NCBI RefSeq assembly: GCF_026151205.1
Contig: NC_087074.1
Location: 19,326,740 to 19,390,739 of the forward strand
DNA from: Bolinopsis microptera
Lineage: Eukaryota > Ctenophora > Tentaculata > Lobata > Bolinopsidae
Length of the DNA: 64,000 nucleotides
Direction: 5' to 3'
The notes beneath the pieces are model-generated. The model made no database searches and was not told the origin of the DNA. It saw only the letters and a program-made list of their open reading frames with translations. Below, in pieces: positions 3,310 to 54,138 of the stretch. The position numbers and the translations under genes are program-made. Every line of letters begins with the position of its first letter. Position 1 is the stretch's first letter.

Positions 3310-5120
3310 ACCTTCGAGGTTCGAGTATGAAATGAATGTAGAATTATTATGTTAACTAGTCCGGGGTATTCGGAGGCGATAAAATGGAACTTTCTGGAGC
3401 AAGGCTGGTTACTTTTAGCATGAACTACCACTGCACCAGGAAAGTTATAATGTTAGATAAGCTAGCAGGGTGGCACGACAAACCTCGTTAACCAAGGAAT
3501 CCTCAAACTTGATGATTTATCTCGCATAAATTTTAGCATTCACTTGAAGTTCAGAAACCTAATATGTAAATATGATGATAATGCGGGTCTGGTTTATAAC
3601 TTTATATTATACGACTACGAGACGGGTACATTAACTAAACGGGTGATACTCGTAAAATATCGAGTCCAACTCTGCGCGCGTCCTGGTTGTCATACTTTGT
3701 ATGACCCGCCGCGCACGAAGTGCGCGGCTCCCCCTGTATCGTCAGGACGATAAAGGGGTGAAACGACCGTGGGGGTCGCAACGTGATACAACGTCCTGGT
3801 AGGTTGTAAACCTACAACGGGTACAGCACGGCGCACGCTGGTCGCTGGTTGTTGGTGGAATTAATTAAAAAAGGTTACGAGATAAGACTATCACTAGCTT
3901 ACAATTTTTGTATTACTAATTTGATAAAAATCTGTTAATTATACTCCCACTTTATCTATTCCTGGGATTTCAAATTGAATTTCCTTCCCAGACAGTGCTG
4001 GCTTATTAAGTTCATGGTTAACTAGAAATCAACGGGTGATTGGTCTTGGTAGGTTATTAACGTACAACTAGAAATCTAATCGTGAAATTGACTGAAGGGT
4101 TGTTATGCCCGTTAAGTATTATAAACAGAACAAACCGGATTGGCATTATATGAGAAATCACAATTAAAACCAGTTATATTGGCACAATTTAAGTTGATGA
4201 TTATACATTAACGTTAGTAATAGATTTTATTGGCAAGCAACAACACAAGTTAAAGTAGTAATAAGTTATTACTTAGGCAGAAGATCGACCACATGCTCAA
4301 ATCAAAGCGCTTCTTTTAAATAACTACATCCAAAAAGATGTTAAAAGTAAAACCATTATATATATATTTGGATCTCCACAACAGATCGTATCATCAACAC
4401 TTTTGATTGCACCGCAATTGAACTTTCATCAACCATGGCTTCTTTTAAAGGCGCCAGTTATCTTGAAAATGATTTCCCTATAAAAAACCTCCTTTTAGAT
4501 TAAAAATCGTATAAATTTCAAAGCTCTATCAAAACCAATATGTATTATAAACGTTTCTAAACATATTATATGACACACATTACAATGTCGTTGTATCTAG
4601 AGGGTAGAAAAGTCATGTACATGTACGATTCCCGCTTAAAGTAGAAAAACTAAAAATATAAGTTACCCTAAAAATAATTTACATCAACATAAATAAAGTT
4701 AAAAATTTGTTTGACACTAACTTTAATTTTCCATTATTTTACGACGTCCTAAATGTTTCAAATCATAGGTACCAACTTTGATGGTCAAACTTATAGTTTC
4801 AAATGTAAATGAGTAAATTTACAAACCAAAAACCAATCATCCCACATGAAAATTTGATCAACTTATAAAGCAAATCAATTTATTTAGAATCAAGTTAACA
4901 AATGTCAACTCCAAAGCAAGTAGACGACCTTTTTTAAACCCAACTGCGCCGCATTGTCCAGACTAAGGACCCCTGTCAATACATACTAACAGAACTATTT
5001 ATCTTGATGTTTATATTTTGACAATATCCGCTAAATTGGGATCACACGACACATCTTGTCACCAGACACTCCAATCGTGGGTCAAATGATTTCTCTTCTT
5101 GAACAATGAACATCTATTAA

Positions 5121-5151
<31 letters not shown>

Positions 5152-5291
5152 ACAAACAAAGTAAGAAAGCAGCTGATGTAAGAGTCTGGCTGCATTTGGT
5201 AGAGCGCTGATTGATGATGGAACTACGTCATCGTCGTAGCGTGACGTCATCGCTTCAAATTGTAACGTCATCACCCCAAGTTATGACTTCG
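3310..5291. other. Non-coding AT-rich spacer with a cluster of hairpins
   Basis: No exon is supported. Around 3689-3770 several perfect or near-perfect hairpins follow one another: GTCATAC-TTT-GTATGAC (3689-3705), GCCGCGCAC-GAA-GTGCGCGGC (3708-3728), then an imperfect CCCCTGTATCGTC/ACGATAAAGGGG pair. A short (AC)n microsatellite lies at about 5130-5150. The rest is AT-rich with no recognisable feature. Confidence 0.5.
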
Positions 5292-8200
5292 TCATTGTCT
5301 GCTGTCATCTTCGCTCTCGTCGTCTGATGGAGGTGGGCTGTGGTACCTAAAAATGGGAAATGTATTAAGTCAAACCTGATAAATACGGGGGCAAAAAAGC
5401 CTCAAAGCCAAATTGAAAGACGCAAAAAGAGGTTCCAACTAGCGCCAAACATCTTGTAGAACCAAGTAATCTAGGATAAGTTCCCACTCAGCTGATAGAT
5501 AAGACTAACCGGGACTGTGCAGCGTGAGGAAGAGGATGTTGTGGCATAGGTTGGGGGATTAGACCCGGTCTCAGCTGGATGTAGCTCATTGCCGAATTTA
5601 GCAGCTGCGGGTTCAGAAATGGTATGGGGTTGTACCTGAAAGATGTCCGTTTAGCTCAGTAAATTCTACATTTCACAACAAATTTCAGGTTTTTAATATC
5701 ATGGCAGATTTCTTTAAGATTCATGGCCTATCTTGAGACGGTCTCTTCAAAGAGAGTAGAGACCGTCTCCCAAGAACATCACGAAATGCTTGAAAAGTAA
5801 ACCAAATCATCTCAAACTTATAGCGTTGCTGGACAGACCCAGGAGGAGGTAGCCCGTGAGGGGACCTGCTATCGATACGTTGGTTCTTGTCCGCTGAGTG
5901 GAAGTCAGGAAACCCAGGTCCGTGGACAGGTCCATGGAATCCCGGCCCAGTTTGCTGCTGGAGGTTTCTCAAGTGGATTTTGAGTTCTTCAGGAATGTGG
6001 GGATGGCCGGGGTTAGGGTGGATGGCCTGTGGTCCTGGATCAGGTTGCTGCTTCATGTGCCTGATAATAAAACTTAATTGAGAGATTTTTAAACTGTTTA
6101 GTCGGGGCGGGCAACGGCAAATTTAATCAACTCAGATAACGTTTAATAAATTAATATACTCTCATCTCTGCATTTAAAGACACGTTTCCAAACCGGAGTG
6201 TTCATGATTGTACCACAAATTGAAATAAAAAGGAAAACTCCAACAACAGAAAGCGAAACTTACTTGTCCTGTTGAAGTCGAGGTGGGACCTGGTGCCGGT
6301 GAGAGGGCTGCATGACATTCTGGTGGATCTGAGAGTACATATTGAGCTGAGCTTGGGTCATGTGTGGGGGTTTCTGGTGCAGTGTCACTTTGTCAGAGTG
6401 GGTGTATTGAGGCTGTGCCCCCTTCTCCGAGTGAGAATATTGGATCGTGTTACTTTTCTCGTTCAGACTCTGAAATAGTTAGTCTGAGTCAGCTGGATCG
6501 AAGGATCGCGATTAATTCTAGAATCTCCCTAGAGATTATTACCGTGACATATTTACTCTTTAATGGTTCCCACTGTAGTCGATGACCAGGACCTAACAAT
6601 CAGGGATAGCATCATACCACAATATTACCACAATATTACCACAATATTACCACAATATTACCACAATATTACCACAATATTAGTCGTTACCTCACTGTAA
6701 GATCCGGAAGATGAGCGGGACCTTTCCAGGGGTCTAGGAGCCAGGGGAGGTGGTGATAGAGCTAGCTCCTGGGGCAAACTTGTCTGTGACTGCTGATTGG
6801 ATACTAGTGGCTGCTGATGTGGCGATGCTGCGCTCTGAAAATTATAAATTCCTGTATATTCATAATCTGTGAATAAACGTATGATTCTTCTTCATTCTCG
6901 AGCACAAGGATAGTAAAATATGTGAAATATGTTACGTGTTATTCGCGATTTCAAATTCTGGATTTGACTGGGATCGTCTGTGATATCACAACTTGACATA
7001 CGTAATAATTTATCACTTTCAGTAAAATTCAACCTTGCCTCAAAGTTGCTTGTCTTACGCACAACTTATTTATTAGATACCGATGGCATAAACAGTTTAT
7101 AAACGGTTTGTATTATATTTGGATGACTCAATAGTCGACATAATGTATGCGAATATGCGATGTCTGGATAACTCTATATATTTTGTTCATTATATCATGT
7201 TGCTTTCACGAATAATCTGACACGATCACATGTACGGAGTTAAAGCAAGCGACAACTTAAAATCACCAGTTTAGTCAAGTCACCACATGTTCAAATAAAT
7301 AGCAAGATACCGCTCCAAGCTCCAATTAGGAGAGCTACACGTTACCGCTCGTAAGTAACTCTTCACTACAAGCTCAATAACAATAGTGTCATGAACACAC
7401 CCGGAGGGCTTTAGAACCCGCTCAAATCCTCGCCATTCTTTTGTAACAATTAGAAACTTATACTAACAACCAAATAATGTTCTGTTTAAAACATCAGAGA
7501 TACGGTGGGTAGAATATAACAAATTGACAGACAGATTTGTCAAACAATTAAAGATGCAATCTGTGTAACTCATATTAAAGTTGTTACGATATCTTTGACC
7601 AGGAGACTTTCAGATACCAACGTTTAACTACAAACCTTTTTCTCGTTTTTAATTCTACAGAAAAACTTGCCACAGACAAAATATAAGTATCTCCGGTACG
7701 GTTAGACACGTGGTAGTAGTTGAAACCTGGACTGGTAGAGGATGAGCTGGAGATTTATGAAGCGAGGGAGAGGAGGGGATGGGAGGTTGGTATCCTGGGG
7801 TATAACCCTGTTCCACCTGATCGTTGGGCTGAGGGAATTGTCAGTCAGTTATATCACGTGGGGAGTTAATTTAAAACTTGATCAAGTCAAATTTCAAATT
7901 TGATAACGTTTTACGCCGATCGGAGCTTCAATCGAACAACTTCAATGAAGGTTCCATAAAAAAGAAACGTCAAGCACCTCGTAGGTAAGCGTATCCTCGT
8001 GACTTCCATAACTGCTGTTATTTTGGCTCTCCTCAATAGAGTTGGGTAGTTGGGAAACAGGGGGAGCGAGGTGGGTCGGAGCGTGCTGCTGGGGAGGCGA
8101 GGAGTGAGCCGGACTGTTCGTTACCTTGCTCGGAGAGAATATTTCCGGTGAGAAAGCTTGTAACGTTGATTGAGGGGAGAAATGAGTTGGGGAGAAGGAA

Positions 8201-11200
8201 ACTGGGGCTCCGTTAGTTACTTTTTCAGGACCACTCTGAGATATAGTATCGTTAAACCTATAGAAAAAACCTACGAAGGACAGACTTTAAGCTTGGCGAA
8301 TTAGTGTCTTAATTTCATCTCCAGGAATAAATTATCTAATTAAAATGATTAGAACCTTGTTTGAAGGAGGTCTAGTATGGTCGACATGATTTCTCCTATC
8401 ATGTTGCTGGAGTCTTATTGGCTGCTGCAAACCCTCCAAAGGAGACCGTACGTTCGTGTTGTGTGTATTGTGGTGGCTGAAAGGACAGTCATTAATCACT
8501 TTCCAACGGGGTATTTACTCACATCTTGATTTTTATCAGCAATATTAACTAACATGAGTTGATTAAATTGATTTTAATGTGCGGTTGATTTAAATCATTT
8601 TGCCCAAAATTTGACAAACACCTGTTGTTGTTGTTATGGTGGAAGTTGTTGTTATGGTGGAAGTTGTTCAAATAGTTGTTATTGTTGTTATGGAAGTTGT
8701 TCGCAATCCCTCTCGATTTGTTGTTATTAGAGTTGTTTGTGAATTGGTGTCCTCCGCGATTATTGTTACTGAAATTGAATCATTATATTATCCCTCACAA
8801 TAACCAGTATTTAAACCAACAATGATCATGATATAATTAGTTTCGGTGAGTTAACTTATGAATGATGAGCCAGTAATTCCGTACGTCGATTTGCACAAAC
8901 ATTCTTTGCAAATATATGTGGCTCATCTTCTTGACTCACAAGGTTGCTCAGTAACTTAATCAAAAGTTATAAATCATAATATCATATCTAATCAAAGGTC
9001 TATCTCAACGATCTTACGGCGAATGTGCACATGATATTGAAATGATAATGAAATGAAAATTGAAGATGCTCAGCTAAATCCTGCTTCTGTAAAGAGATGC
9101 TGTATCTAACAAACCTCTGCATCATCAAATTTTGGAAGATAAGAAGTTTCTTAATCAAATCTTTATCGGTTTTTGAAGGTGGTTGATAGGGTACGGTTTT
9201 GGTAGGTGGTATAATTACTGCAGCTGCGGTTGAGTGCTGTGGAGTGGAAGCCCGTGATGTCTTGTGGGTTGTTCTTGAGGATGAACTAGTCGGTAGGTGG
9301 CGTGAAAATTCTAAAAACTATCAAATTTTAATTTATGGGTAGAATTTGGATGCTATGATGGTAGAAATGAAAATAAGGAAAATTTATTTATCCCCGCTTA
9401 GCCGAAATTATAAAATGTATTACTTGTAGAACTTATTGGGTATGTTTATCATGTCGTGAAATACAGGAGTGTTGTGCCGAGGATAGTTGTTTTGTTGAGG
9501 ATACATGTTCCTGTGGTTCTGGAGATGGGCCGGCATCATCGGACCCATGTGACTTGCTGGCCGGTGCTGCTGCTCCAAATTCGAAAACACTGGCATCGCC
9601 TGACGAAATACCTACATAGATTATAGAAACATTGTAAGTTTGATCAAATCATTAGAAAATAACGAAGTCATTTCTTGAGGTCTAACCAGACATATATTTT
9701 TAAAAGGTAACCAATAAATAGGTTTAAGAAGAGTAAGACTAACTGGAGGAGCGGGGAAGGGCGGAGGAGCGGGGGAAGGTTGTCGGGTGGGAGGAGCTGA
9801 ATCCATTTTAGAGTTACTAAACATGTTACCAGGGAATAACAGGTTCCAGTGGTAGACGTTTATACGGAGAAGATTGTAGTGCTGAAGTAAACGCTCAGTT
9901 GAAATACAATAAACACATACTTAATATTGTAGAGTTATGTCTATTGTCTAGTTATAAATTGAGAAGCTCGAGCAAAGAAATGAGGACTCACGTGAATTCC
10001 CAGGTTATAGAAGAACTCCACTATTTTCGGATCATCAGGCAGAGGGTTCCGTTCGTCACAGTAGGAAGGAGGATCCGTGAAGTGGGGAGCTGACCGACAT
10101 AGCATTGGAGGTATGTTCAGAGGGAATGGCGAAACGTACTAAGGAGGCATGTAATTCATAATTTAAGTGTTTTTATTTAAGTTATCGAAACGATCACGTT
10201 AGTCTGACAATCCTTCATTTTGTTCGCTACTCTCAAAGGAACTGAAGATGAACGTAACAAATGATCGATATGTTATATCGCGTTTTGAGCCTGCCACCAG
10301 GCCAGAAACCCAATAATTATTGTTATTCGTCATAGACTTAAACTGATTATCTTTGACAGAATATTGAGTCTGGTTTTCTTCAGTTTGTCTCATTTTTGCA
10401 GCATTTCATAACTGTTCATCCTACAGTATTAAAGTACCCAAATTAATTTTACGAACCGACTCGGGGAAGACCCGCTTTATGTTGACCACATGATTATCTA
10501 TGCAGACATTGTTATCTTTGTGCGTTGCTAGTAGACTCTCCATTTGGTCTGCTGTGTCGTAGGACACGAAGCCAAATCCCCTGAAGATATTTATTAATTC
10601 ACCAAATATGTTATTTCATTGAAGATGATAGTATCCCGCTGATAGTATCCCGCCATAATATAGAGCAGTCATCAGTGATCAGTAAACATTGATTACAGGG
10701 CGTAGAGAAATAAAAATAGCATACAAGTAAAGACATAAACGAGACAGTTCACATACTTGTTCCGTCCTGAAATCTTATCCCACTTCAGAAAGTAGCTGCT
10801 GATTTTACCAAACTTAGAAAAGAACCCTTTAAAGGTTTCAGGGGTGGTGGTGTGATTGAGACCCCCGACGAAAACACGGTGTTCCAGGTACCCATCGTCA
10901 CCTTGCGACTATAAAAAATGAAAGGTTTCATGCAGCAGCAAACTGTGCACAGACTGGCAATGTACCAAAATGGTGTAAAGTATCAAAAAATATGTGCATA
11001 TCAGCCAGAGGACTTTAAATAAAGTGTGAAATGGTAACATTTTAAACCACTGTCTCGTGTTGCAGAGAATTTAACGTACGCTGTTAGAGGAAATGCTGCC
11101 ACGATGATGAGATCGTCTACTTCCAAAACTGGTAGGAGTGTAGGATCTTTCTACTCCCGGCGTGTTTTCTCGTTCGTCTGAATAATACAGATCACCTTCG

Positions 11201-14200
11201 TCCGACCGGCGCTTCTTTTTCCGTTTGTCTTGCGACCTTGATCTTAGTTTGGTTGGCGGATAGTCCTCCGTTAACCTGCACAGTAAAATTCAGGTCGAAT
11301 ATGGCTTCGACCAAGTCGAGCAATGTGTAGTTTCATGCATTCATCAAAACATTCCGAGGCAATTAAAATGCAAATCCTGAATATTTTACATACTTAATGC
11401 GAGCTATGTCATCTTGGAGTCTCCAAATGTGTTCTCTGACATCTTGGATCGAATCTTCGCACTGTTTGGAGGAGATAAGAAGGTAACATAGAGTTGTTAT
11501 GGCTGAATATTACTCCACACGCGGTTTGGAGAGAAGAAATATGCAGAGAAAAGGACAGCCATCGGACAAGTTGCAGCGCTGCGCGTGATAAAATCGAGAG
11601 TTTTAGGACAAACTTAGCGTAAGCTTTAAACATTACGTCACATAAATGTCGCCGCGCGTGGCGTTTTATGACCCCCAATAAGATATTTTATCGTGAATTC
11701 AACGCTTGAACATAAAAGTAAGAAGCACAACAAGTGCCAAAATAAGCGCCTTTATTCTATAAATTACTAAAGTCATGCGAAAGTACTTATTGAAGGGTCA
11801 CCTTGATGAAATTGCGCAAAATCTCACGTAAAATTTAAATTGTAAACATCTGCACACAACCTCTGATAAGATAATTGGATCATACCCGGATGGAACATAA
11901 CAAGATCACAGTGGGCCTTTATCCCCACACCTTATTTGGTCCTATTAACATTACCTGTGCGGCTTTTGCATCCTCAAGTTCTCCCTTCTTTTCGAAAAGT
12001 TCTTCTTCAAGACGTTCACGATCTTGACGCAGTTTAATCAATTCCAGGTCGTCAAAATCACTGTTCAGCGAGCTGATTGATTCCGACTTTCGAGCTGAAA
12101 TAACAAATTATTAAATCGTGTATTGCCGGGAAGGCTGTTAATTTAGGATAGAGTTTTTGTGGCACTTATCTCAGTTTGTTCTTTTGTAGTTATTCTCACA
12201 CAGCTGAGTAAAAGTTTTTCAACTTAAAAGCAGTGTTTATAATTCAATTTATTATTATTATTATTTCATTCAGCCGCCCAGACCATGCGTTTTTTATCTT
12301 AATATTTTTCAATTATTAGATTTGACAGATTCATTTCGTATCTCAAATTGGAAGAGAACATTCAAACTTCAAAGCAGTTGCAGTTTTAGATCATAATTTA
12401 TACAATTGCTTTACTATACCGGTCGGCGCGGTGGTGGCAAGTTGACACAAATCAACTTCTTTTGATACAAACAAATATTCGCATGTTATTGAAGCTGAGA
12501 ATTTCTCATTTCTGAAACTTTATCGCCCACTTTTTTAGGATTTCTTGGATATAATTATCGTACTGAACAGCAACTCTCCACATACACAATAAAAATTCAG
12601 ATTCATATTTCAATTACAATTATTTATCTTTATACACCAAGGCTAAGTTAGCTACGTTATTGGGAGTTGTGTGTGACTCGCTGGAATGTAACTTATTGGT
12701 TTTTTAAAGTTTATAAAATTTAGATTTAGCACCTAAGTAAGTAAGTAAGTAAGTTGGTCTACACGGAGCCTGGCCTCCGAGCTTCAGTACCTTGTTTAAC
12801 TTGTGCTGTGGTACAAATACGGCACCTTCTTTTGTGCTGTGGTACAAATACGGCACCTTCTTTTGTGCTGTGGTACAAATACGGCACCTTCTTTTAAACA
12901 CTTGTTGTATCGTATTTTACCCAACGAGGCAATTATCTCACTCTAATCGCCGATAACGGTTAATACTTTCCATGAAGTATCCAACCACATTTTTTGTCAT
13001 AGGAAATTTTAAAATTGCAGTGATGAAAACAACACGACTGTGAAAACAGCAGTGTGAAGTGTTGGAAAGTATTTTGTCTAGCTTCAATAACTGTCAGCTA
13101 CAATTTTATAGCTGGGCTGGTACCACGATCGCGGCAATCCTGTAAAAATAGTTCCAGATTTGAGGGCATTATACCCACTATTATATATTTTAACATACAT
13201 GACAACTAAATACTAATCGCTGCTTACTTATTACAAGACAAATCAATCGAATATTTTATTCAATTAGTTAATTATTCCATGTTTGACTAGAAGACCAATT
13301 CTTGCTGTTATTGTCAGCCGATGATATAACATTCAAATTATAGATAAGATCAACCAAAACTTACGGAGGTGGCCTACACTCAGCATCTTGAAGCGATAAT
13401 GGAATTCGGAAAGGCAAAAGCAGCAACACTCAAATCCGTTTATAAAAGATAAATAAACAATTCAATAAACGGCCACAATTACAAAGTAACCGGTAAGGTC
13501 GAACGGTCGCGGTGGAAATTTAACACTTACAATCTAGATTGGAAGAACGATTACTGAACTCCACGTGTAGCTGCCTTCCAAAGAACATGGCCCCATTAGT
13601 GTGTTTTATCGCGTTAGCTGCGTCCTCGATGGAATGGAAATCTACAAAAGCATAACCTTTGTTTCGCTTCGTCACGTGATCGATTACCAAACTGAAATAA
13701 ACGAATGATAATAATAATAGAGTCCTGGGACCCTCCGAGCATAAATATATAAGGGATATGAAAGTGATTTAATATAGAATGACGCGAAAATTAGGAATGC
13801 TATGTGATCACCTATGTCGAGAGTGTTGCGTCACATATTTTCGTATATTTGTAACTTAATAAAGCGTTTAAAACTCATTGCTTTTAATATAATTACCACT
13901 AGTAATTACCACTAGTATATTAGTATAATTACCTAGTATAATTACCACTAATGTAATTACCACTGAACAGTAAAGTATGGTCATCTGCCAGAACATATAT
14001 CAATAACAAAGAGTTTTCATTAGTCATTACTGCTGAACAGTAAAGTATGGTCATCTGCCAGAACATATATCAATAACAAAGAGTTTTCATTAGTCATTAC
14101 TGCTGAACGGATATTTATAATATACGAACTACGAAGACAAAAGTAACGAGACTAAATAGCAAAACAAGTCCGTTCGTTAGGATGATAAGGATTAAGGGTG

Positions 14201-17200
14201 TCGCTTAAAATAAACGCACATTAATTCACAATTTGTTAATTAATTTACCTGGTTTTAAGAGGATTAAATCGTGCAAACTGTCCTTCTAAGTCCTCTGTAC
14301 TTATTGAGTTGTCTAAGTTGCGAACTGAACATTTTTTTTTTATTAAATACTTTTCAAATTTTACTAAGTACAGCAATGGATGAATATAAAATAGAATCGT
14401 AATATCGAATATAAAATAGAATATAAATTAATTTTTTTTTCTTCGCATATTCGAGTTTTTTGTTTGAACTTGTATTCATTTTTAAATATTACGTTTAAAT
14501 ATATGCGTTATACAGTAATAATATTATTTTTCCAATAACATTATTAAATTTAAATGATTGAAAAGTAAACTAACCATAAACTGAGTTTGATGGAGGATTG
14601 TCGTTCTTATCTGTAGAAATTATTAACCGTTAGAAAAGGAGAAGAAAACATCAACTTAAATGTATTGAATAAGACAATTACAAATTGATCGACGACGGTG
14701 ATTTTTTTGGTAAAAGTTGTTTTTAAAACAAAATGAGATTGGACATAATTCAATATGATATAAATAAAAAAATAATATTAACTGACTGACTGACTTACAC
14801 GGATACATAATATAAAACTTTGACTCTAATGTAAACTGTAAAGCCTAGCCACTCAACCGTGAGGTAAGCAGCGATTAACACCACAGTCTACTAAATTAAT
14901 ACTAATAGATTTATCTTTGATAAATATCTTTAAAGGCTTTGTCAAAGTAAAGAGATCTTTTGAAAGATTCAGCGCAAAAATAGAAGGAATTGGACCACGT
15001 CTCATCACATATCTTCCAGCTACAACAAGAAAATACCGCTTTAGATGTACTAAAGTTTGACTTATGGCATCTTACAAAAAATGTGCGTGACAGTCAATAT
15101 TGTGATGTGTATGTTAGGTATTTAGTATGATAATTTGCTGGCTAGCAAAGTATTTAAGTTCACTAAGTGTTGTTTTTTCCGTACTAGGACACGCTTGAAT
15201 GGCTTGAATGTGTCTTCTTTGGGTATGTTTCTACTGTCGCGTCAAAGGTACCGACCTTTTATGTATCTATGAAAGAAGAAGTAAGCAAAATTGACGGACG
15301 TCATAATATTAGTTACTAGCTGGCCACAGGTGCTAACTAAATCTATGTAGCTAGAGTTTGGTGCTGGTCAGGATTCTAAGAATAGCATTATGTACCAAAT
15401 ACACTTGCACTCCTTGACATAGTTTCGTAGTTCATTTATAGACTTCACCATAGACTACTATATTTATAAGGGAGACGCAGCATAATTCTTGACAAGTAAC
15501 AGTGATTAGTTGATGACCAATAAAATTCGTAATTCGATGTCATGAGTAACAAAAATGCACCACCTCATAACATAACAATGTGATAATTAAGTATATTAAC
15601 CACAAAAATCTAGCGTATCAGGGATAGACATTTAAACAAATAACTTGCATTTTTAATTTATGCTTATGTAGACAGTGTAGTGACTAGTCAATGTAGTGAC
15701 TAGACAGACTTTGATTAAATACATAGATATTAGATAAAGAAACCACTCTTTAATACAAATCACGTTTTTAAAAACAAATCAAGTTTTTTAGACTTTTTAA
15801 TGAAGCTAAGCCATAAAAGTCATGTAGGAAAATTAAGATATCCGAATAGTTGAATCGTGAGGTATGTAAAGTGTTGTTGGGTGTGCTAATATGCCATATA
15901 TTTTACACGCTATGACGCAGAGTTGATGACGTATAAATAACATGAAAAACGCCTTATATAAAGTTATAAAAAGTTCGCCTTTTAACACATTTTTGGGATG
16001 AATAGCGAATCACTTGAAGGTAAGTTATGTAAAAATACTTTTAGACACGCTGGAGCTGTGAGGTCATTTCAAAATGGCAACTTACTTAACTTACTTAACT
16101 TACTTAACTTACTTAACTTACTTAACTTACTTAACTTACTTAACTTACTTAACTTACATAACTTACTTAACTTACTTAACTTACTTAACTCACTTAACTC
16201 ACTTAACTTACTTAACTTACTTAACTTACTTAACTTACTTAACTTACTTAACTTACTTAACTTACTTAACTTACTTAACTTACTTAACTTACTTAACTTA
16301 CTTAACTTACTTAACTTACTTAACTTACTTAACTTACTTAACTTACTTAACTTACTTAACTTACTTAACTTACTTAACTTACTTAACTTACTTAACTTAC
16401 TTAACTTACTTAACTTACTTAACTTACTTAACTTACTTCGATTATTGTTGTGATTTCCGGCGTACCAAGGAGGTTGCTTTGTGTTAAACTGAACTTTTAT
16501 CTTAGTGTCTTGTAAAGAGAACCCATTGAGATGTTTAACGGCCTCTTTGGCGTGGGAAGGGTCGTGATATTCAACAAATGCGTGTCCTCTGTTCTTGCTG
16601 GAGTGCTCTGTCATCATTAACCTGCATGACAGCCAATTACAGTTAACTTGGTACTGATGTTAATTGAGAATAGGTATAATGTTAAATCATGGCTTTTTCG
16701 ATAGATAAGAAAATTGTAGACGGTCAGCAATGAAATTCAGTAAATATCATACTTGACTTTGGCAGGTCCAAATCTGAGGAATAACTCTTTCAGTTCAGAT
16801 TCTGTTGTATCATAGCAAATATTAAAAACTGAAATAAATAAAAGGTTATCCGAAAAGAGTTGTCATAATACATGATGTTGCAAAGTTGGCCAGAACCAAC
16901 AAAAGCTCTTATCACGCTGTTATCAGCGTTGTCGACAGATTAAGCTGACTGGGTTAATTTAAATACAAGCTGTGTAACACAAAAAATATGTGCATTTTTA
17001 TAGAATAATTAGTTTTACTGGGCATGCTTAGGCAAGTGCTAAGTCTTTGACTTACCAAATAATGCTCTCTCAGAAAATGACTGTTCAGCAGTCTTGTCTG
17101 AAAAATTAACTTGGTTAATAAGTCCTAATTACAGCAGACATAATCCTGATCCTTTGAGTTTATAATCTTGATTATACTAGAATATGTTTAAAGTTCCGCA

Positions 17201-17667
17201 GAAACAAAAAGATAACCTCAACTTATCAACACCATATTCTCTAATTGCAATAAATAAGCAAACACTTAGTAATAACGACGAATAACAACGTGACATTATG
17301 ATCACAATACACATTTCTCGATAAATGTAACATCAATATTCAATATCCATGACATATTAATTAACATTCACATGAACAATAAATTATATGTGCATGATGG
17401 AAAATTCGGAAAATTGGAAATGTTTCTATACTGCACTTATTTGTTATCAGAACTTTTTACTTATCATTGCAACAGATATTGAAGTGATATTCAGTTATTA
17501 TGTGGTCTTCTAAATAAATTATATTGTTAGTTTGATATTATTAAATCACATTATTCTGTTAAACTAAATCTGTCAGAAGGTTGTTAACATTATTAAACAG
17601 AAAACATACCTGAATATTTAGGGGTAAACGATGATTTAGTCACATTTTCTGGGACTGATTCACTCAT
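5292..17667 (-). CDS. Three-RRM RNA-binding protein with coiled coil and Q/P/N-rich tail (25 exons)
   Basis: Minus-strand exons: 17667-17610, 17097-17056, 16828-16753, 16621-16437, 14610-14575, 14324-14249, 13691-13531, 12094-11955, 11461-11394, 11275-11080, 10908-10757, 10580-10438, 10089-9992, 9881-9744, 9611-9424, 9285-9115, 8768-8622, 8476-8356, 8235-7978, 7828-7727, 6834-6691, 6469-6264, 6060-5818, 5635-5510, 5346-5292. All junctions are GT-AG and keep phase; they total 3330 nt, 1109 aa. RRM1 lies at about residues 31-105 (RNP2 LFVFNI, RNP1 RGHAFVEY) and RRM2 at about 130-205 (VYVRNL, KGYAFVDF). A charged coiled coil (RQDRERLEEELFEKK) and a basic patch (KRKKKRR) follow. RRM3 is hnRNP A/Musashi-like, at about 357-435 (VFVGGL, KGFGFVSY). 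The tail is rich in Pro, Gln, Asn and His and ends acidic (SDDESEDDSRQ). Likely a nuclear RNP or mRNA-regulatory protein with a prion-like tail; no ortholog is named. Least certain junctions: donor GTACTT at 10437 and the acceptors at 9286 and 8236. Confidence 0.85.
6601..6682. repeat. Tandem ACCACAATATT repeat in an intron
   Basis: About six copies of an 11-bp unit (ACCACAATATT) lie just downstream, in gene orientation, of the exon ending at 6691. It is intronic and the copies are nearly identical. Confidence 0.8.
12803..12896. repeat. Three-copy 32-bp tandem repeat in an intron
   Basis: Three head-to-tail copies of a unit containing TGCTGTGGTACAAATACGGC lie in the long intron between the exons at 13531 and 12094. 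A short AAGTAAGT run (12735-12755) lies nearby. No coding role is evident. Confidence 0.8.
13365..13386 (-). CDS. Possible alternative first coding exon of the RRM gene
   Basis: A minus-strand ATG at 13386 starts a 7-codon peptide (MLSVGHL) followed by a strong donor GTAAGT at 13359-13364. It leaves phase 1, exactly what the next exon (12094-11955) needs, and would give a short isoform with the coiled coil, RRM3 and tail but without RRM1 and RRM2. Used instead as an internal exon, the 22 nt would break the frame, which favours the alternative-start reading. No promoter element was recognised. Confidence 0.35.
13967..14106. repeat. 70-bp tandem duplication in an intron
   Basis: Two adjacent, nearly identical copies of a segment beginning ACAGTAAAGTATGGTCATC occur in the intron between the exons at 14249 and 13691. 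It looks like a recent local duplication. Confidence 0.8.
16079..16438 (-). repeat. 40-copy 9-bp array of 5' splice donor motifs at the exon 4 end
   Basis: Exactly 360 bp, 40 units. The minus-strand unit is AAGTAAGTT, so every unit carries GTAAGT. The three variant units (one ATGTAAGTT, two AAGTGAGTT) still carry GTRAGT. The natural donor of the exon 16621-16437 is the first unit of the array. Because the unit is 9 bp, use of a later donor adds Ser-Lys-Leu per unit in frame. Retention of the whole intron start reads through about 40 such tripeptides to a stop at 16069-16071. On the plus strand the array also reads open (LLN or TYL repeats), which is a by-product. Confidence 0.95.
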
Positions 17668-18084
17668 TACCTACTAAAGGTAATCTTTTTAATACAGCAG
17701 TTATATTATTTAAAGTTTTAAAGTTTTAAAAGTTCCACCGACCTAGTCTGCGTGTATAATTATAGAATATAGATCATTATAGTCAATAGTCATGACACTT
17801 GCACTCCACATATCAAAGGATAATACTTGTATGAGGCATTTCCACTTTTACTGAGAGACATGACAAGCATGATGACCATGGTACTCAAAAACTGGAACAT
17901 CAAAACTGGTAACTTTTAGTGAAAATGGAGAGAAAGCTTATAGTGAACTTGGTGAGTAGGTAGATGGAAACCGAGCTCTTGGTATTGTCGTATAACTTAC
18001 CAGAATACACATATAATATTTCAATTTGATATTTCGAAATAAAAATAAAAATGGTGCAAAATGGTGAATGATTTTCATGTTGGG
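17668..18084. promoter_or_regulatory. Upstream region of the RRM gene, no defined element
   Basis: AT-rich sequence directly upstream of the predicted start at 17667. It should contain the 5' UTR and promoter if the first coding exon is correct. I see no clear TATA or initiator motif and no other gene. Confidence 0.3.
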
Positions 18085-18413
18085 TGAAGTGGGGGATCAT
18101 GAGTATTTTTGAGAATTTTTGAATCTGAGAATTTTACCATTTTCGCCGGGAATACTCAAAAATGTCTCAAAAAGAGAAATTCAGCATGGATTTTTAATTT
18201 TCTCAAAAATTGTCCACTCAAAAATAGTGATATACCAAATCATTCTTCATATCAGTGCAATGTGGTCCAATTGAGATGAGAATCAATTTTTGAAAATGAG
18301 TTTTTCGCCTTTTCTCAAAAGTACTCAAAAATAATTTTTGAGAATTTGGCCATCTTCGTCGGGACTCTCAAAAATACTCATGATTCCCCCCCCCCCCCCC
18401 CCCCCCCTGAAGT
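18085..18413. mobile_element. MITE, 317 bp, with 6-bp target duplication
   Basis: The element 18091-18407 has terminal inverted repeats (GGGGGATCATGAGTATTTTT and its complement at 18368-18390). It is flanked by TGAAGT on both sides (18085-18090 and 18408-18413). The right end carries a run of 22 C. It contains several TTTTTGAGAATTTT-type internal repeats and no coding potential. Confidence 0.8.
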
Positions 18414-18434
18414 TATGGATATAAGAATGTACCA

Positions 18435-18960
18435 GATACCTTAAGAACGACAAATTTAGTCTACCATGAATTTAGTCAACCAAATTTATTGAGGCGAAAT
18501 TTTTCAGCGACTAATTTGAAAGTAGACCAAAATTTCAGTAGAGCATATATGACATGAATATCATTGAGCTTACATTGTTTATAATTAATATAATGACATC
18601 ACCGTTGCTAAGTTGCTGAAATACTTAGACTATTGTCTATTACACATGCAATCCATTGCTTTTATGTTTACAAATAATATAAATTGCTTTATGCAACAAA
18701 TCATTTAATCAACATGCCTGCCGTTAAACTTTAAAGTATGAATTTAAAGTATGACTGATGATCATGTGCAAAATCTGGGAAAAAAGTAGCTAAATAATGG
18801 AAAAATAAAATAAATGGAATGGAAAATGGTCTCGAAAAGTTGAAAAATGTGACTAAAATTAATGTAGACTAAAAATGTGTGGCTAAAATTATGGTAACCA
18901 AAATTTTTGTAACCAAATTTATTGTGAACCAAATTTATTGGCCTTAAGGTAGCTCCATTT
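18435..18960. repeat. Probable inverted-repeat element rich in AAATTTATTG motifs
   Basis: AGATACCTTAAGAACGAC near 18436 and the complement of AGCTACCTTAAGGCC near 18955 look like diverged inverted ends. The interior repeats ACCAAATTTATTG and AAATTTAGTC motifs in both orientations. The boundaries are approximate. Confidence 0.45.
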
Positions 18961-19119
18961 CATCACAGTTTCGTGAATTATGACTACTCACTCTACACTC
19001 TACTATCACGTCGCGTGACTTACTTATACTTACAATACAAGCGATATTCCAACTTCCAAGCTAGTATTCCGATTCTCATAGTCCACATATGTATATTGTA
19101 TACAAACACTTCTGTCTTC

Positions 19120-19790
19120 TGGGTGACATCTTGTGACCCCCAACCCATGTAGCTGAGACACCTCACAGCAAGTAGACCAAAGTGGCTCTTGTTTGTGAAA
19201 GATGTATAAACTACCCGTCGAAGCGGTGGGTTGGGAGTCTCCCCTGGGATCATTTCATCCGTAAAATTTTACATAATATAAAAGCTACAATAAATTATCT
19301 ATAAAATTTACATAAACAAACTTAGGAGACCTCATAGCTCATCTTCTGAGGGATGGGTTGAAGGATGCATCATCCTCTGATTCCCCTGAGTGCTATGAGT
19401 GTGCTTCGTAGCAGATCAAACCTGAATCGCGTTCTGATGTGATTTTTGACCTGGCTCTTAACTTCTTTATTATGGTCAGCTATCATCTCAGAGATACTAT
19501 CTACGATCACAGTGCAGAGTGGTCCCATACCTCCAGATGTTGTAAAGACTAGTGGGACAAAGGACCCTTTCTCTGACTGAAGTACTCTTCTTCATAGAGA
19601 TCTTTCTTCTCTTTCTCATGCGCACTGTAGATTTTATCTAGTGGCCTAAACGTATTTGAGTAGCAATTAGGATGAGTGACCCTGACGTTTGAAGGGTGCA
19701 TACAGTCCAACAGCTGCTACATCAAGACGGGCTTCATCCTGGGTGTTGGTCTTCCTGGAGAATGAAGTTGGTTGGACTGGCAGGAGTGCA
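19120..19790 (-). pseudogene. Retroelement C-terminal domain fragment (restriction-endonuclease-like module)
   Basis: On the minus strand this is a second copy of the sequence at 32110-32780. It has the same reading (DEARLDVAAVGLY, then a HIRTRFRFDLLRSTLIALRG-type helix) and the same 3' UTR down to the GGTTGGGGGT end near 19133. It lacks the FFDIRV stretch because of a small internal deletion and carries stops. The domain is commonly seen at the C-terminus of invertebrate retroelement proteins; the superfamily is not settled here. Confidence 0.7.
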
Positions 19791-21430
19791 GGTTCTATCC
19801 TTCCATCCTTACACTTTGCTTCCTAAAGAGAAACTGCAGTATCTTTTATGGAATTGTGGTGCATGGAAACGTATCCACCTAATTTACAATCAATGATCAA
19901 TGGGAAATGGCGTGGTAGACACTGTCAGAAACAGAAACAACTACAAACTATAAAATCATTTTCATGAGGATTGTTTCTTGTTTCATTGAAAACTTTCTTG
20001 TTTCATTGAAAACTTTCTTGTTTCATTGACAATCTCAAATCAAACACCTGATCAACAGTAATGTTACCAGACTGGATCAGGAAGATAGGTCTAAAATGGC
20101 ACACTAAGATGATAATGGGTAAAAAACATGCCACCATCATCAGAAACTTGGACACTACACTCAGTAACAAGAGGCAGAAAAATATAACTGCAATGTACCT
20201 TATCACGGGACACTGTTATTAAAAAAAAGCGTCACTATCATTTGCAGATCAAACACCAGTGCCTGTCCTATGTGAGGCGAAAAAGAAGAGACTTGCATGT
20301 TCTAGATCAGATTCCAAAACTGCAAAGTTAATAGAAACAATACTTACTTGTACTTGATTAGGTCTCCTCAATCATTCGAGTGGCCTGCACCAATGAACTC
20401 CCGTTTGTGACGTATCATCTCCCTCCAAAGTTTGCGGTCACTAGCCATCTCGCTCGCTCGCTCGCTCCTTCTACGTCTATGTCAGTGTTTCCTGTAAACA
20501 CTGCAGCATCTTCCAGCAAAAAGATAGAATCTCTAATAGCGTTGTGGCGCATGCTAACGTAACCACCTAGTTTACAGTCAAGGGCGTGGTAGATACTGTT
20601 AACAAAGGATGCAGAAGAATAACAAAGGATGCAGAAGAATTCCTTCGAATAGAGATAAAACTATAAAAAGTTGATCATATTCCAACTACTATACTACACC
20701 ACCCCTATGATTAGTGAGCCGGGTTCAATGTTAGACCGGACGAAGTATATATTTCATGAGCCGGGTTCAATGCTAGACCTGACGAAAATATGGCTACATC
20801 TCAACAATAGATAACACAGCAAAGGTGCTATTACAGTTAAATTCTGTTACCTGAACTCAACTAAACAGTTTTAATATTATAGCATATACTATAATATTAT
20901 GAAAGATATTTTGTGTCAAAATGAGGTTGTTTAATCATTTTTACACACCAAAGGTTGTTGTGTGCTTTTAATTAATTTATTATTGTTTAAAAGTTTATAT
21001 TGAGAATTTTATACAGTAGTCTATAGACTGATTAAATTATTTACTGGTCACGTAGATGTGGTTTTAAGAATTTTATGACATTGAACAAATTTATTCATTG
21101 CGAATTTAAAGGATTGCTAGTATTTTATGTGTTCACTTCTGCACGTTTAGGTAGTTGCTCTTGTGACCAGAGTTTTAGACTTATATATATATCAACAAAG
21201 TTCTTTTTCTGACCTATGTCTCCTATAAAGAAATCACTGTTGTTCTTAGGATTTCGATACAAGAGCGATTCCTTATGTATCCCACAGCATCTGAATACCT
21301 TTGCCCTGTCTGGTATTCCATTTTACTATCCAGCTTCTTTACAAGTCTTTCAGCTTCACCACCCAATCCACCAGACGTTGAGAAAACTAACTGCAAAGTT
21401 AATTTTTAAAATTTTTTAAAGGAAAGAAAA
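19791..21430. other. Mixed repeat debris, no gene supported
   Basis: Holds a short threefold tandem ACTTTCTTGTTTCATTGA (about 19980-20030) and a duplicated ACAAAGGATGCAGAAGAAT (about 20595-20640). GAGCCGGGTTCAATG occurs twice, near 20716 and 20757. On the minus strand near 20370-20455 a short DRKLWREMIRHKREF reading resembles the end of a non-LTR reverse transcriptase ORF, a weak match. Nothing else was recognised. Confidence 0.4.
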
Positions 21431-21431
21431 A

Positions 21432-21838
21432 TTAGGAAAGAAAAATTTTATTTACCACAAAACAATCAATACATAATGTTATATTCATAAATAAATTCAA
21501 ATTTCAATTTCAAACACATATACAGTACGCCGCGCACACAGCCACAATTTTCAATTGTTCAGAAATTCGTAGGTCAGCTGTAGGCGCCGCGCACAGGATT
21601 TATTTAATTGTTATCTTACAATTAGGAAAGAAAAATTTTTTTTTTAGGAAAGAAAAATTTTTATTTACCACAAAACAATCAATACATAATGTTATATTCA
21701 TAAATAAATTCAAATTTCAATTTCAAACACATACACAGTACGCCGCGCACACAGCCACAATTTAAAATTGTTCAGAAATTCGTAGGTCAGCTGTAGGCGC
21801 CGCGCACCTTATCTATTTAATTGTTATCTTACAATTAC
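21432..21838. repeat. Two tandem copies of a unit of about 210 bp
   Basis: TAGGAAAGAAAAATTTT starts two head-to-tail copies, at about 21432 and 21645. Each runs through CGCCGCGCACACAGCCACAA and ends ATTGTTATCTTACAATTA. They lie directly upstream of the larger duplicated unit. Confidence 0.8.
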
Positions 21839-22413
21839 ATGTCACATTTCTTAATTTCTAGAGCCAAAATTTCAGATGCAAAATAATTTAAAAGAAAGAT
21901 ATTTCTGTCGTTCACGCAGTACAGGCCGTGAACACTGCGACCTAATTAATATAATAATGGAGAGATTCCAAAAAACCGCGCGCTCGTTATTTGTGATAAA
22001 ATTGAGTGCGCGCCACTGTCAACCGCAGTACCGCTCAAGCATGAAGTACTAAGCGGTACGCAGTTTTGCGTGAGGCGTAGACATTTGTAGCACACGTTTC
22101 ATTCAACTAATCCATTATGTGACATGTAATTATATTAAAGCAAAAAGAATATTAATTTTAGTAATAATTGACGTAAACATATGTGTTTAAATAACATCTA
22201 TAATCTAGCGAGTTACTTATACCATTTGTTTGTATCATTGATTATATATGTTAACACTAGCCTATATTATGATGGAGATATACATTGCATTATATTATAT
22301 AATTGCTCCAATATTCAACACTGCTAAACAACAAATACCTACTCGCCCATCGATGAAGCAGTCGCCAAAACAAAGCTCAAAGTTAATATATCCTCGTACT
22401 TCGTTTTGGAAAC

Positions 22414-24242
22414 TGGTGGAAACTAGTGGTTCAATAAGAAAAGTGAGGTTGAAAACTATAAACCAATATCCCTTACTTGTTTAGTCATGAAAGTTTTTGA
22501 GCGCATTGTTAAACGTAAACTGCTTTCTTTGACAAGTACCCTTCTTGATCCCAGGCAGCATGGTTTTCTAGAGCACAAGTCATGCACAACCAATATGGTT
22601 GACTTTTGTGATAGCCTGGCATTGTCTCTTAACGAAAACATTATCAATCATGTTGTGTATTTTGATTTTGCTAAGGCATTTGATTCTGTAAATCATGATA
22701 TCCTTCTTCATAAGCTAAAGACCTTATATAACATTGATGGTACACTTCTCAAATTTCTTACCAATTACCTTCAAGGCCGTTACCAAAGAGTGGTTATTGG
22801 TAATGAGATGTCATCTACCCTCTCAGTTAATTCTGGTGTCCCCCAGGGCTCTATTCTTGGTCCCTTACTTTTTGTATTGTTTATCAATGATATTCCTCTT
22901 GGCCTTTCGGATAATACTGATATTGTTTTGTATGCCGATGATACAAAAATCTGGCGTAAAATACATTCATCTTCTGATAATACTAATTTACAAATGGATA
23001 TAGACTATCTCTCTGACTGGGCACTAAGAAACAAAATGCGATTCCATCCAGCAAAATGTAAAGTGCTTATTGTTTCAGGAAAACCATCTTTATCTCCTCC
23101 ATTTGCATATAATCTTGATGGCTCTCCTCTTGTGTATGTAGAGTTAGAAAAAGATCTTGGAGTCGATGTTACTCCTAAGCTAAGTTGGAATAGTCAGTGC
23201 GACAGAATTTATACTAAGGCCTGCCAACAACTTGGTATGGTCAGAAGAGATGGCCATATTGTCATTGATCAGAAACGTCGCCGGGCGCTTTACCTCTCCC
23301 TGGTTCGTAGCCAATTCGAAAATTGTTCCATGATCTGGCGCCCTTGTAATAAATCACTTAGTGATAAATTAGAAAGTCTCCAAAAGAGAGCTATTAAATG
23401 GATTCTGTCTGAAGAGGGCCGCAGTTATCCACCTGAGCAATATGTCAAAAAGTGCAAGCTTGTCGACATTCTCCCTTTGTCTCAAAAGTTTGACTTGAAT
23501 GATCTTATTTTTTTCCACAAAGTTCTTAACAATTTAATTCCTGTATCGCTGCCTCACTATCTCTCTTTATATCAGGGCACTTCTCGACTAAGACGTTGCC
23601 ACCTCGACAGTCTGTCTATTGTGTCATCAATTTTACCTAAGTTAAGTCAGAATTCACACACCACATGTACCTCAAATAGCCCACTGGCAAAATCATTTTT
23701 CTACAGAACCCATATACTGTGGAATGGACTCCATTTACAGATAAGACAGATTGTGTCTACTAGTCTTTTCAAAGCTGAGGTCACTAAGCATCTATGGAAA
23801 TGTTTATTGGATAGTGAAACAACAGTCTAGCCTAGTCTCTTTGCTCCCCATATTATTATTATTTTTGTTTTATTAATTTTTTTATATACCTTCCTATACT
23901 TTCAACATCATATCACACTTCACCCGCACACCTTCTCACACATTAATGACCATTTCAGACCTGTATCTAATGTATCTGGAATTTGACGTATTGAAATACC
24001 AATTTTGACTCTATATCCACAGTTATTCACCATGGATTTGTTTGTTATTAAATAGTTTTTCATAAATTTTTGGATTTAGATTAATTCGATGTAATGGGTC
24101 CAAGTTACTGCGGACATAGTTCACTATGTGTTTACCGTGTTTGGGTGCCCATCATATTTTACAGATGGGGGCGATATTTTGAACGATTCTATTTTATATT
24201 CATCTATTGCTGTACTCTGTAAAATTTGAAAAGTATTTAATA
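22414..24242 (+). mobile_element. 5'-truncated non-LTR retrotransposon insertion
   Basis: Comparison with the uninterrupted copy (25017-26405) delimits the insertion. Sequence after TTTTGGAAACTG diverges at about 22413, and similarity resumes at TGTGTATTCGATGGG near 24252 after an A-rich tail (AATAAAAAAAAATTG). About 30 bp of target is lost and no target duplication is visible. Confidence 0.75.
22420..23830 (+). CDS. Non-LTR retrotransposon reverse transcriptase, 5'-truncated
   Basis: The frame is open from about 22427 (ENYKPISLT), before the first Met at 22487, so this is the 3' part of a longer ORF. RT motifs are intact: motif A YFDFAKAFDSVNHD, motif B GVPQGSILGPLLF, catalytic motif C LYADDTKIW. 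The C-terminal thumb/linker (SFFYRTHILWNGL) and stop at 23830 are typical of Jockey/CR1/L2-related elements. Copies DNA from its RNA at a nicked target. A 3' UTR follows to an A-rich end at about 24240. It lies inside copy 1 of the duplicated unit. It lacks the endonuclease half, so it is dead on arrival, although the retained ORF has no stop. Confidence 0.9.
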
Positions 24243-35656: not shown

Positions 35657-35687
<31 letters not shown>

Positions 35688-35745
35688 GCTTCACATATAC
35701 ATAATATATTATATATATAATATATTATATATATAGCTTCACGAC
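35657..35745. repeat. (AT)n microsatellite after the hammerhead
   Basis: Imperfect TA/AT dinucleotide run with a repeated TATATAGCTTCAC. It abuts the ribozyme, as is common at the 3' end of short retroposons. Confidence 0.85.
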
Positions 35746-52500: not shown

Positions 52501-54138
52501 CCCCTTAAGTTAGAAGTTTAGAGATACTCACATCTTAAATTAGACATTTTATGGGATTCTTAATTGGAAGTAAATCTAATTAACAGATTTAAGTAGAGTG
52601 ACTGACGAATGTTAGCCGTAAAAGCCAAGACTTTTTACCATAACATAAATCTCCGAAAGTTGTAAGACCTTTCAATGCGTTGCCACATCAAAGGTTATAT
52701 AGGCTATATATAATAGAGCACCTTCACCTTGACTTTGTGACAGCTATCATGAGCTGTTGACAACTAGGAGTTTCTAAATCCAATTTATTGTGTGATCTTT
52801 ATGATAAAAAGCTGCTTTTGACCAGCAACAGTGCCTATTTTACTAAAAACAAATCATAAACCCTGAACAGATACCATACATTCATACCAGTGTGTTATAA
52901 ACAAGTTGAAACAAGTTTACTATTTGCACAGATAAGCAAGAAGACGAGATTAGTGTGTTATAAACAAGTTTACTATTTGCACAGATAAGCAAGAAGACGA
53001 GATTAGTGTGTTATAAACAAGTTTACTATTTGCACAGATAAGCAAGAAGACGAGATTACCAGTGTGTTATAAACAAGTTTACTATTTGCACAGATAAGCA
53101 AGAAGACGAGATTAGTGTGTTATAAACAAGTTTACTATTTGCACAGATAAGCAAGAAGACGAGATTAGTGTGTTATAAACAAGTTTACTATTTGCACAGA
53201 TAAGCAAGAAGACGAGATTAGTGTGTTATAAACAAGTTTACTATTTGCACAGATAAGCAAGAAGACGAGATTACCAGTGTGTTATAATCAAGTTTACTAT
53301 TTGCACAGATAAGCAAGAAGACGAGATTAGTGTGTTATAAACAAGTTTACTATTTGCACAGATAAGCAAGAAGACGAGATTAGTGTGTTATAAACAAGTT
53401 TACTATTTGCACAGATAAGCAAGAAGACGAGATTAGTGTGTTATAAACAAGTTTACTATTTGCACAGATAAGCAAGAAGACGAGATTAGTGTGTTATAAA
53501 CAAGTTTACTATTTGCACAGATAAGCAAGAAGACGAGATTAGTGTGTTATAATCAAGTTTACTATTTGCACAGATAAGCAAGAAGACGAGATTAGTGTGT
53601 TATAAACAAGTTTACTATTTGCACAGATAAGCAAGAAGACGAGATTAGTGTGCTATAAACAAGTTTACTATTTGCACAGATAAGCAAGAAGACGAGATTA
53701 GTGACTCCCCGGTTCCCTGGCGAGGGTAGTGAGTATGTAGCCAGTGATGATTCTCACACGCGCATCGTACGTGCCTTTAGTGAACCCTCTAAGTGTGACG
53801 AATTTGATAGTCAGGTAAGTTCAAAATGATTATTCGAGGTGTTCAAACCAGTACAAATCCTCCTTGTGGCCAAGAATGACGTTTTTCTTGTATCAAATAT
53901 ACTAAATACTATAATATATTAAATATACAGACAACTTAGAAACCCTTCTCAGTGATTACTTAGTACTTAAAGAGGAAATTATTTCATCCCCTCGTAAATG
54001 ATCGACTTTAACGAATCAATTCTGGTTCAGGAGTACCTGATGGCTCGCAGTGACTTGAGCAATGTTTCCAGCGACCTGAGCAGTACTGAGAATCTTCTGG
54101 ACTCAACTGACGACGCCTCCTTCCCCGACACGGACGAG
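46558..54138 (+). CDS. RhoGAP protein with C1 zinc finger, ARHGAP29/ARHGAP45/GMIP type (partial)
   Basis: Exons 46558-46758, 47236-47349, 47569-47706, 47903-48094, 48244-48396, 50891-51118, 53680-53814 and 54031-54138. All are phase 0 with GT-AG borders. Exon 1 seen here is a C1 domain (HLFRRSRAPVRC, CRAC, CQKC, CHRKC, C-terminal KCGGH). The next gives the VPTFGVDF linker. RhoGAP follows: catalytic arginine in GIYRVAGAK, SSVLKLYLRQLPEPLL, NQMTSVNLGIVFGPTLIRP. It would speed GTP hydrolysis by Rho-family GTPases at membranes. The later exons are Ser/Asp-rich tail (SDDSHTR, SSDLSSTENLLDSTDDAS). The F-BAR part typical of these proteins is not seen in the window, and no stop was found after 54138, so both ends are missing. 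One intron holds a palindrome and an acceptor array. Confidence 0.9.
49400..50150 (+). repeat. Tandem pair of units of about 365 bp with a small membrane-protein-like ORF
   Basis: Copy 1 encodes an 88-aa ORF (49422-49688) with one hydrophobic segment (LPLVVWYLALIVLAVAIYS) followed by a highly charged tail (KGDDKEKRKEKE). Copy 2, about 49765-50150, has a one-base loss after the start, so it reads only from an internal Met at 49911. Its tail continues further. Both lie in the RhoGAP intron between 48396 and 50891. No family recognised. Confidence 0.5.
50280..50785 (-). pseudogene. Reverse transcriptase fragment with YVDD motif
   Basis: Minus strand: NKRYVDDLSIINYLYFHK (catalytic YVDD), then NYLDLNINISTEGLEISVYN and KTDDFNFHVVSL, SNIPTEVGYNVFSSQ, up to a stop at 50280. 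The LDLNI and DDFNF pattern is that of a reverse transcriptase group distinct from the LINEs in this window, perhaps Penelope-related; the assignment is uncertain. No N-terminal part. Intronic in the RhoGAP gene. Confidence 0.6.
51133..52508. mobile_element. 1.37-kb almost complete palindrome flanked by TTAA
   Basis: 51137-52504 is one long inverted repeat. The left arm is about 51137-51820 and the right arm about 51840-52504, meeting near AATTTGGCGGCCAAATT/AATTTGGCCGCCAAATT. It starts with a G run (about 20) and ends with a C run. TTAA borders both sides. Both outer arms read openly (for example RQTVPAGQPRPYLVQIRPN), a consequence of the inversion. Located 15 bp after the end of a RhoGAP exon. 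Confidence 0.92.
52886..53703 (+). repeat. 15-copy 53-bp array of 3' splice acceptor plus exon start
   Basis: The unit runs TGTGTTATAAAC, TTTACTATTTGCACAG, then ATAAGCAAGAAGACGAGATTA. Two units are 56 bp with an added CCA and the first has about 10 extra bases. The RhoGAP exon 53680-53814 begins at ATAAGC inside the last unit, in phase with the preceding exon (ISKKTRLVTPRF), so each unit repeats the acceptor and the first 24 exon nt. From any earlier acceptor the reading reaches TAA after 18 codons. Confidence 0.93.

Follow-up and report, generated by a model that had tools for sequence, protein, structure and literature searches.

A tandem array of forty splice donors in a ctenophore RRM gene, probably a minisatellite born at an exon-intron junction

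In the stretch of Bolinopsis microptera DNA analysed here (64,000 nucleotides, referred to below as the window), exon 4 of an RRM gene runs into an array of 40 nine-base units, each of which carries a splice donor. This array is probably a mirage, a minisatellite that arose when the junction of exon 4 and intron 4 was duplicated in tandem; it would be tolerated because splicing can rely on the first donor, with the rest becoming intron. A 40-unit array at exon 4 is far beyond chance. Of the explanations offered in the initial annotation of this DNA, the best fit is its last one, slippage originating in a donor. Beyond what that annotation could show, the array is one case of a feature that recurs in this genome and of a kind already described in amphioxus.

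The array and the gene that carries it

Tandem Repeats Finder (TRF) run on the window reports a repeat of period 9 at 16079-16438, with 40.0 copies, 98% matches and zero indels (Table 1). Split into units, the array consists of 37 copies of AAGTAAGTT, two adjacent copies of AAGTGAGTT, and one of ATGTAAGTT. The initial annotation had described a unit repeated exactly 40 times; the copy number stands, but three of the units are variants. Its statement that the donor core GTRAGT is kept throughout is correct, as the motif is counted 40 times, once in each unit and in the variants as well. The identity of 37 of the 40 units fits recent spread, homogenisation or turnover. Exon 4 ends in AATCGAA/GTAAGTT (the slash marks the junction), and the first unit straddles this point with two exonic and seven intronic bases, in agreement with the earlier placement of the array start on the exon 4 donor. 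As a tandem repeat, the array extends across an exon-intron boundary, which was located by splice consensus and reading frame, and with a donor in every unit and its start at an exon end it has the anatomy of the IFI6 type.

The exons of the gene were called by eye from splice signals and frame. Exons 1 to 8, from 17667 down to 11955, splice to a single open frame, and the internal exons have an AG acceptor and a GT donor. The joined product matches Pfam RRM_1 (E 8.4e-37) and has two stretches of this domain; poly(A)-binding protein and nucleolin are its best solved relatives by sequence. In this predicted chain exon 4 joins exon 5 in frame, as had been proposed. The unit read as AGT AAG TTA lies in the reading frame of exon 4, and the remaining two frames are stop-rich. 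Choice of donor n would insert n-1 Ser-Lys-Leu repeats, and translations of the joined exons for n = 1, 2, 3, 10, and 40 contain no stops, which bears out the earlier claim that the frame stays intact whichever donor is chosen. Retention of intron 4 closes the frame at SKLPF followed by a stop.

This open frame invites a reading in which exon 4 continues through all or most of the units to a late donor and encodes a long Ser-Lys-Leu tract. All 40 units are open and unit 40 is in frame with exon 5, but one of three frames would be open by chance, a coding repeat has no need to start exactly on a donor, and sister arrays at other exon ends have stops in their unit and cannot be coding. A coding array is distinctly improbable. 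It is extremely improbable that the array is an artefact, in the sense that its true copy number differs or that it belongs to one allele: minisatellites vary in length and one assembly was examined, but the internal variant units and the many like arrays described below argue against an invented array, and only the number of units may be off.

Table 1. Junction arrays, exons of the RRM gene and related features. Locations without a prefix are positions in the window; C denotes contigs of the assembly, and L052, L054, L055 and L078 belong to the random sample.
Feature	Location	Strand	Basis or remark
RRM gene, exon 1 (coding part)	17610..17667	-	in-frame chain
Exon 2	17056..17097	-	in-frame chain
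Exon 3, RRM1 start	16753..16828	-	RRM_1 match, in-frame chain
Exon 4, RRM1 end; last two bases inside first repeat unit	16437..16621	-	AG acceptor, in-frame chain, RRM_1
Splice-donor array, 40 x 9 bp AAGTAAGTT, GTRAGT in each unit	16079..16438	-	TRF, unit split
Frame end on intron retention, SKLPF, stop 16071-16069	16069..16078	-	translation
Exon 5, in-frame partner of exon 4 from donor 1 or any other unit	14575..14610	-	in-frame chain
Exon 6, RRM2 start	14249..14324	-	RRM_1 match, in-frame chain
Exon 7, RRM2	13531..13691	-	RRM_1 match, in-frame chain
Exon 8	11955..12094	-	in-frame chain
11 bp x 6 array, starts at intron +9 behind exon end 6691 of RRM gene	6615..6682	-	TRF
53 bp x 15 junction array, each unit acceptor TTTGCACAG plus first bases of next exon	52909..53703	+	TRF
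Second array of the unit, ~33 more varied units	C13:8204383-8204682	antisense	39 nt from putative donor of doubtful exon
32 bp x 37, last 29 exon bases and three intron bases	C1:36576		unit contains CTCAG/GTACTT
65 bp x 20, LMF1_C exon end and donor	C1:1291343
14 bp x 40, five bases before acceptor of LMF1_C exon	C1:1291343 locus
41 bp x 7, fills intron from +3, protein kinase gene	C1:217513
39-bp array multiplying acceptor of another exon, protein kinase gene	C1:217513 locus
36 bp x about 50, exon end and donor	C1:2584858
8-bp array from +2 behind PDZ exon	C1:2958100
19-bp array from +1	C2:2666901
Array from +8	C1:1382870
Array from +13	C1:3114218
Array reaching up to acceptor	C1:3543145
Acceptor array, E1_dh exon	L052:1084		Pfam 1.5e-11
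Acceptor array	L052:3075		weak B_lectin match below cut-off
Acceptor array	L055:8307
Donor array	L054:148
Donor array	L055:7166
Donor array	L078:2740

Intact donors, period and U1 pairing

The initial annotation had treated the kept GTRAGT, the period divisible by three and the open frame as signs of function. None of these holds up as such. Of the 27 possible single changes in the unit, 10 keep GTRAGT, and the probability that all variants would keep it is about 0.14 for two independent events, with the variant units 27-28 counted as one event, and 0.05 for three. The periods of the ten donor-junction arrays are 9, 36, 32, 41, 65, 8, 19, 13, 23, and 8; only two of them (9 and 36) are divisible by three, where one third is expected, and the 36-bp array has an in-frame stop in each unit. 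As for the frame, the unit has one open frame out of three in any case. Selection inferred from the intact motif, the period or the frame was therefore rejected, since each is expected without it.

These results bear on the possibility of a selected donor reservoir, in which several units would be used and the resulting mix of Ser-Lys-Leu insert lengths would tune the linker between RRM1 and RRM2. All 40 donors are intact and the frame is preserved from every unit, but neither of these, nor the period, requires selection, and most sister arrays have periods not divisible by three or contain stops. The exon 4 donor is weak, ranking sixth of the eight in the gene by predicted U1 pairing, so that extra copies might help. 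Human IFI6 uses further units as donors, with three mRNAs, according to the accessible part of the source (PMC4526556). The weak first donor, by predicted U1 pairing, and the IFI6 precedent are the only points for a role of the array, and a selected reservoir is unlikely.

When paired with the presumed 5′ end of U1, all 40 donors have predicted energies of -5.4 to -5.7 kcal/mol, about equal to that of donor 1; on this prediction, the exon-proximal donor would not be handicapped. Forty equal predicted pairing sites could also form a platform that gathers many U1 particles, which would mark out a weak exon or protect the intron from premature polyadenylation. However, no test result points towards a U1 role, and the acceptor arrays and antisense arrays found in this genome would need another reason. 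Furthermore, the RNA of exon 4 and the array is predicted to self-fold (-89.4 kcal/mol, z -3.76 against shuffles), and this predicted fold, which would hide donors, speaks against the free display of all of them. A U1 platform is very improbable.

The unit and its sister arrays in the assembly

A search of the 264.65-Mb assembly for three exact tandem units gave just two places, the window and a second array on C13 (C13:8204384-8204635), and no similarity was found between these two arrays across their 2-kb flanks. Found in three exact copies at only these loci, the unit is no satellite scattered over the genome. Membership in a dispersed satellite was ruled out by this count together with the unlike flanks, and the initial annotation's counter-case of a satellite scattered without relation to exons did not materialize. 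It had also suggested a search of the genome for other arrays of the unit and a check of whether they start at exon ends: one further locus exists, and this C13 array does not lie at an exon end. That this sole other array of the AAGTAAGTT unit is situated away from an exon end counts against the mirage reading.

Three GTAAGT motifs at short gaps were found at 13257 places in the assembly, versus 2718 for the reversed pattern, and the GTAAGT search with AGGTAAGT gave 958 places versus 0. For three copies of the acceptor pattern TTTCAG, the numbers were 3739 and, reversed, 1226. Reversed motifs are a crude control, and the raw excess of GTAAGT places was rejected as proof because it counts places, not arrays; in the first 2.96 Mb of C1, the clusters number 6 versus 3.

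Arrays were then scored by their distance from exons called by eye, among the first ~100 places listed of each search, for GTAAGT and for TGAATG as a control. Among these listed matches, 10 of 13 assessable GTAAGT arrays (the one in the window included) lie at most 20 bp from an exon boundary, versus 0 of 4 TGAATG arrays (Fisher P 0.015). Sixteen GTAAGT clusters were listed; C1:761375 and C2:2723669 were dropped as duplicates of C1:36576 and C2:2666901, and C2:21866317, in which the array edge was not reached, was left out of the remaining 14. The GTAAGT arrays away from a boundary are C1:16704353, C2:3987015, and the one on C13. Five TGAATG clusters were listed. One of them, C1:3744256, is 3740243 in inverted copy and was left out, and C1:2432506 was scored as a miss, its distance upstream of a GAS2 exon being 45-98 nt. 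Nine of the boundary arrays lie outside the window, all on C1 or C2; GTAAGT is on the donor strand of the gene in three (C1:217513, 2584858, and 2958100) and on the opposite strand in six, so that the GTAAGT copies in those six are not the donor, a point against the mirage reading.

Six loci in other genes (C1:36576, C1:1291343, C1:2584858, C1:217513, C1:2958100, and C2:2666901) repeat the build of the RRM array with unrelated units. Some of the loci show features of their own. One gene segment is present twice, at C1:36576 (L010) and C1:761375 (L075-L076), with the same exon-end array in different unit numbers, and another is duplicated at C2:2666901 (L069-L070) and C2:2723669 (L071), with many units versus three. 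Array length thus changes after duplication of the segment. The kinase gene of L014 has three arrays in neighbouring introns (575-863, 884-998, and 1482-1773); one lies 32 bp behind a donor, one multiplies an acceptor, and one fills its intron. In L009, the arrays at 1050, 8209, and 4883 (the last being the C13 array) are away from a boundary, and the one at 5345 was left out.

Junction arrays in a random sample

A random sample was formed by the first 15 of 140 preset random 10-kb stretches, 150 kb altogether, with arrays required to have at least 3 copies, a period of at least 5 and a TRF score of at least 100. Six of the 35 arrays obtained span a junction, as called by eye, or start at most 2 nt from one. 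Pfam matches were found for two of the six exons concerned, with E1_dh alone above the cut-off, and a PDB search with the L054 exon returned no match. Two further arrays (L052:3788 and L055:6670) have a boundary within 20 bp. The other 27 do not, among them L080:450, which was scored as a miss with its end 21 nt short of a possible exon. These 27 refute the proposition that exon ends are the general location of arrays, and they count against the mirage reading.

If one boundary per kb is assumed, 1.0-1.6 junction arrays are expected and the probability of six or more is 0.0007-0.0055, while at two boundaries per kb 2.0-3.1 are expected and the probability is 0.018-0.098; these P values are flattering, as four of the six arrays come from two stretches and the boundary density is assumed. 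Extrapolation from six arrays in 150 kb leads to about 10,600 junction arrays (Poisson range 3,900-23,000). Both boundaries of introns are multiplied in this genome, as acceptor arrays (window 53703, L052:1084, L052:3075, and L055:8307) are found in addition to those at donors.

A wider pattern can be put forward tentatively. Junctions may be birthplaces of minisatellites, in which case thousands of introns would begin or end in copies of their own junction, and junction-bound duplication would feed intron growth, intron movement and, where the period allows, in-frame alternative donors. Candidate junction-bound processes are slippage on self-similar splice motifs, DNA damage linked to transcription or splicing, and reverse splicing of intron ends. 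Within the reach of the literature searches, no report of junction minisatellites in ctenophores was found.

Other features of the window

Three of the four arrays in the window with at least 4 copies and a TRF score of at least 130 lie at or near a boundary (6615, 16079, and 52909), and the one at 59208 does not. The array at 52909 contains 15 copies of TTTGCACAG; the exon at 53680-53814 is an ORF between splice sites and gave no Pfam match. The array at 59208-60198 (54 bp x 18) has no evident exon at its edges. A smaller array, (CATCTTAA)7, is part of a segment that is present twice with identical flanks, at 38601-38656 and 40173-40228, 1572 bp apart. On the plus strand, 35612-35658 matches the Type I hammerhead ribozyme (Rfam RF00163, 35.9 bits versus a gathering score of 34) and is directly followed by an AT-rich tract (35657-35735), and a 467-aa open frame at 22427-23830 reads by eye like a LINE-type reverse transcriptase.

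Proposed origin of the array and its meaning

The mirage reading of the exon 4 array can be cast as a sequence of events. The unit consists almost entirely of donor consensus, and AAGTAAGTT is self-similar (AAGT AAGT, with TTAA between units), such that replication slippage may have started on the donor, and later slippage or unequal exchange would have allowed growth to 40 units. One donor would suffice for splicing: the exon-proximal or a nearby unit would connect exon 4 with exon 5, and all others would be removed with the intron. From the sequence, we infer that donor 1 is used. Leaky use of later donors is possible; it would merely add Ser-Lys-Leu to the linker between RRM1 and RRM2, and purifying selection against growth of the array would consequently be weak. 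The same process would have acted on many exon-intron junctions throughout this genome, donor and acceptor alike.

The array offers a clean test, set up by nature, of the choice that the spliceosome makes between forty equal donors spaced nine bases apart, in which every choice is in frame and legible as linker length. If the wider pattern is true, the origin of junctions and introns by tandem duplication would become directly testable in populations.

Comparison with known systems

The founding paper on mirages is reportedly that of Canestro et al. 2002. The accessible text on amphioxus describes them, in the Adh3 and globin genes, as exon-intron boundaries duplicated in tandem in the manner of a minisatellite (PMC3087553). 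Undisturbed regular splicing and an unstable length, in somatic cells as well, are further traits of the kind. Like the arrays reported here, they are boundary-spanning tandem repeats with splice signals whose extra copies are intronic, and both 5′ and 3′ boundaries are affected in the genome, as far as that text describes them (PMC3087553). They differ, in the same text, in having few copies of 150-160 bp (globin) or 10-72 bp (Adh3) (PMC3087553), whereas the RRM array has 40 copies of nearly nothing but a donor; they also belong to another phylum and concern single genes, in contrast to the thousands of junctions that the random sample suggests here. Should the wider pattern be borne out with annotation, a curiosity of a few amphioxus genes would become a force acting across the genome in an animal lineage that branched off early.

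In the Rogers model, as outlined in the accessible part of the same source, introns are gained by tandem duplication of segments that bear AG/GT (PMC3087553). The units at C1:36576 and C1:217513 bear both AG and GT, and could create or move introns in this manner. The RRM array is unlike this model in that intron 4 was already present and only its first bases were multiplied, and AAGTAAGTT is without CAG/GT. GYNGYN tandem donors, in which two donors lie 3 bases apart, likewise involve competition between donors a few bases from each other, but the RRM array has forty donors at intervals of 9 bases.

The minisatellite of human IFI6 (6-16), said to supply several splice donors (Turri et al. 1995), reportedly has a 12-bp unit in about 26 copies. 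Its gene and sequence are unrelated to those of the RRM array. Further-unit use in IFI6 is shown by transcripts in the accessible part of the source (PMC4526556), whereas the present array is known from DNA alone. As far as the accessible description goes, the two share a short unit, a location at an exon end with a donor in every copy, and a period divisible by three, and the IFI6 minisatellite is the closest single case in anatomy.
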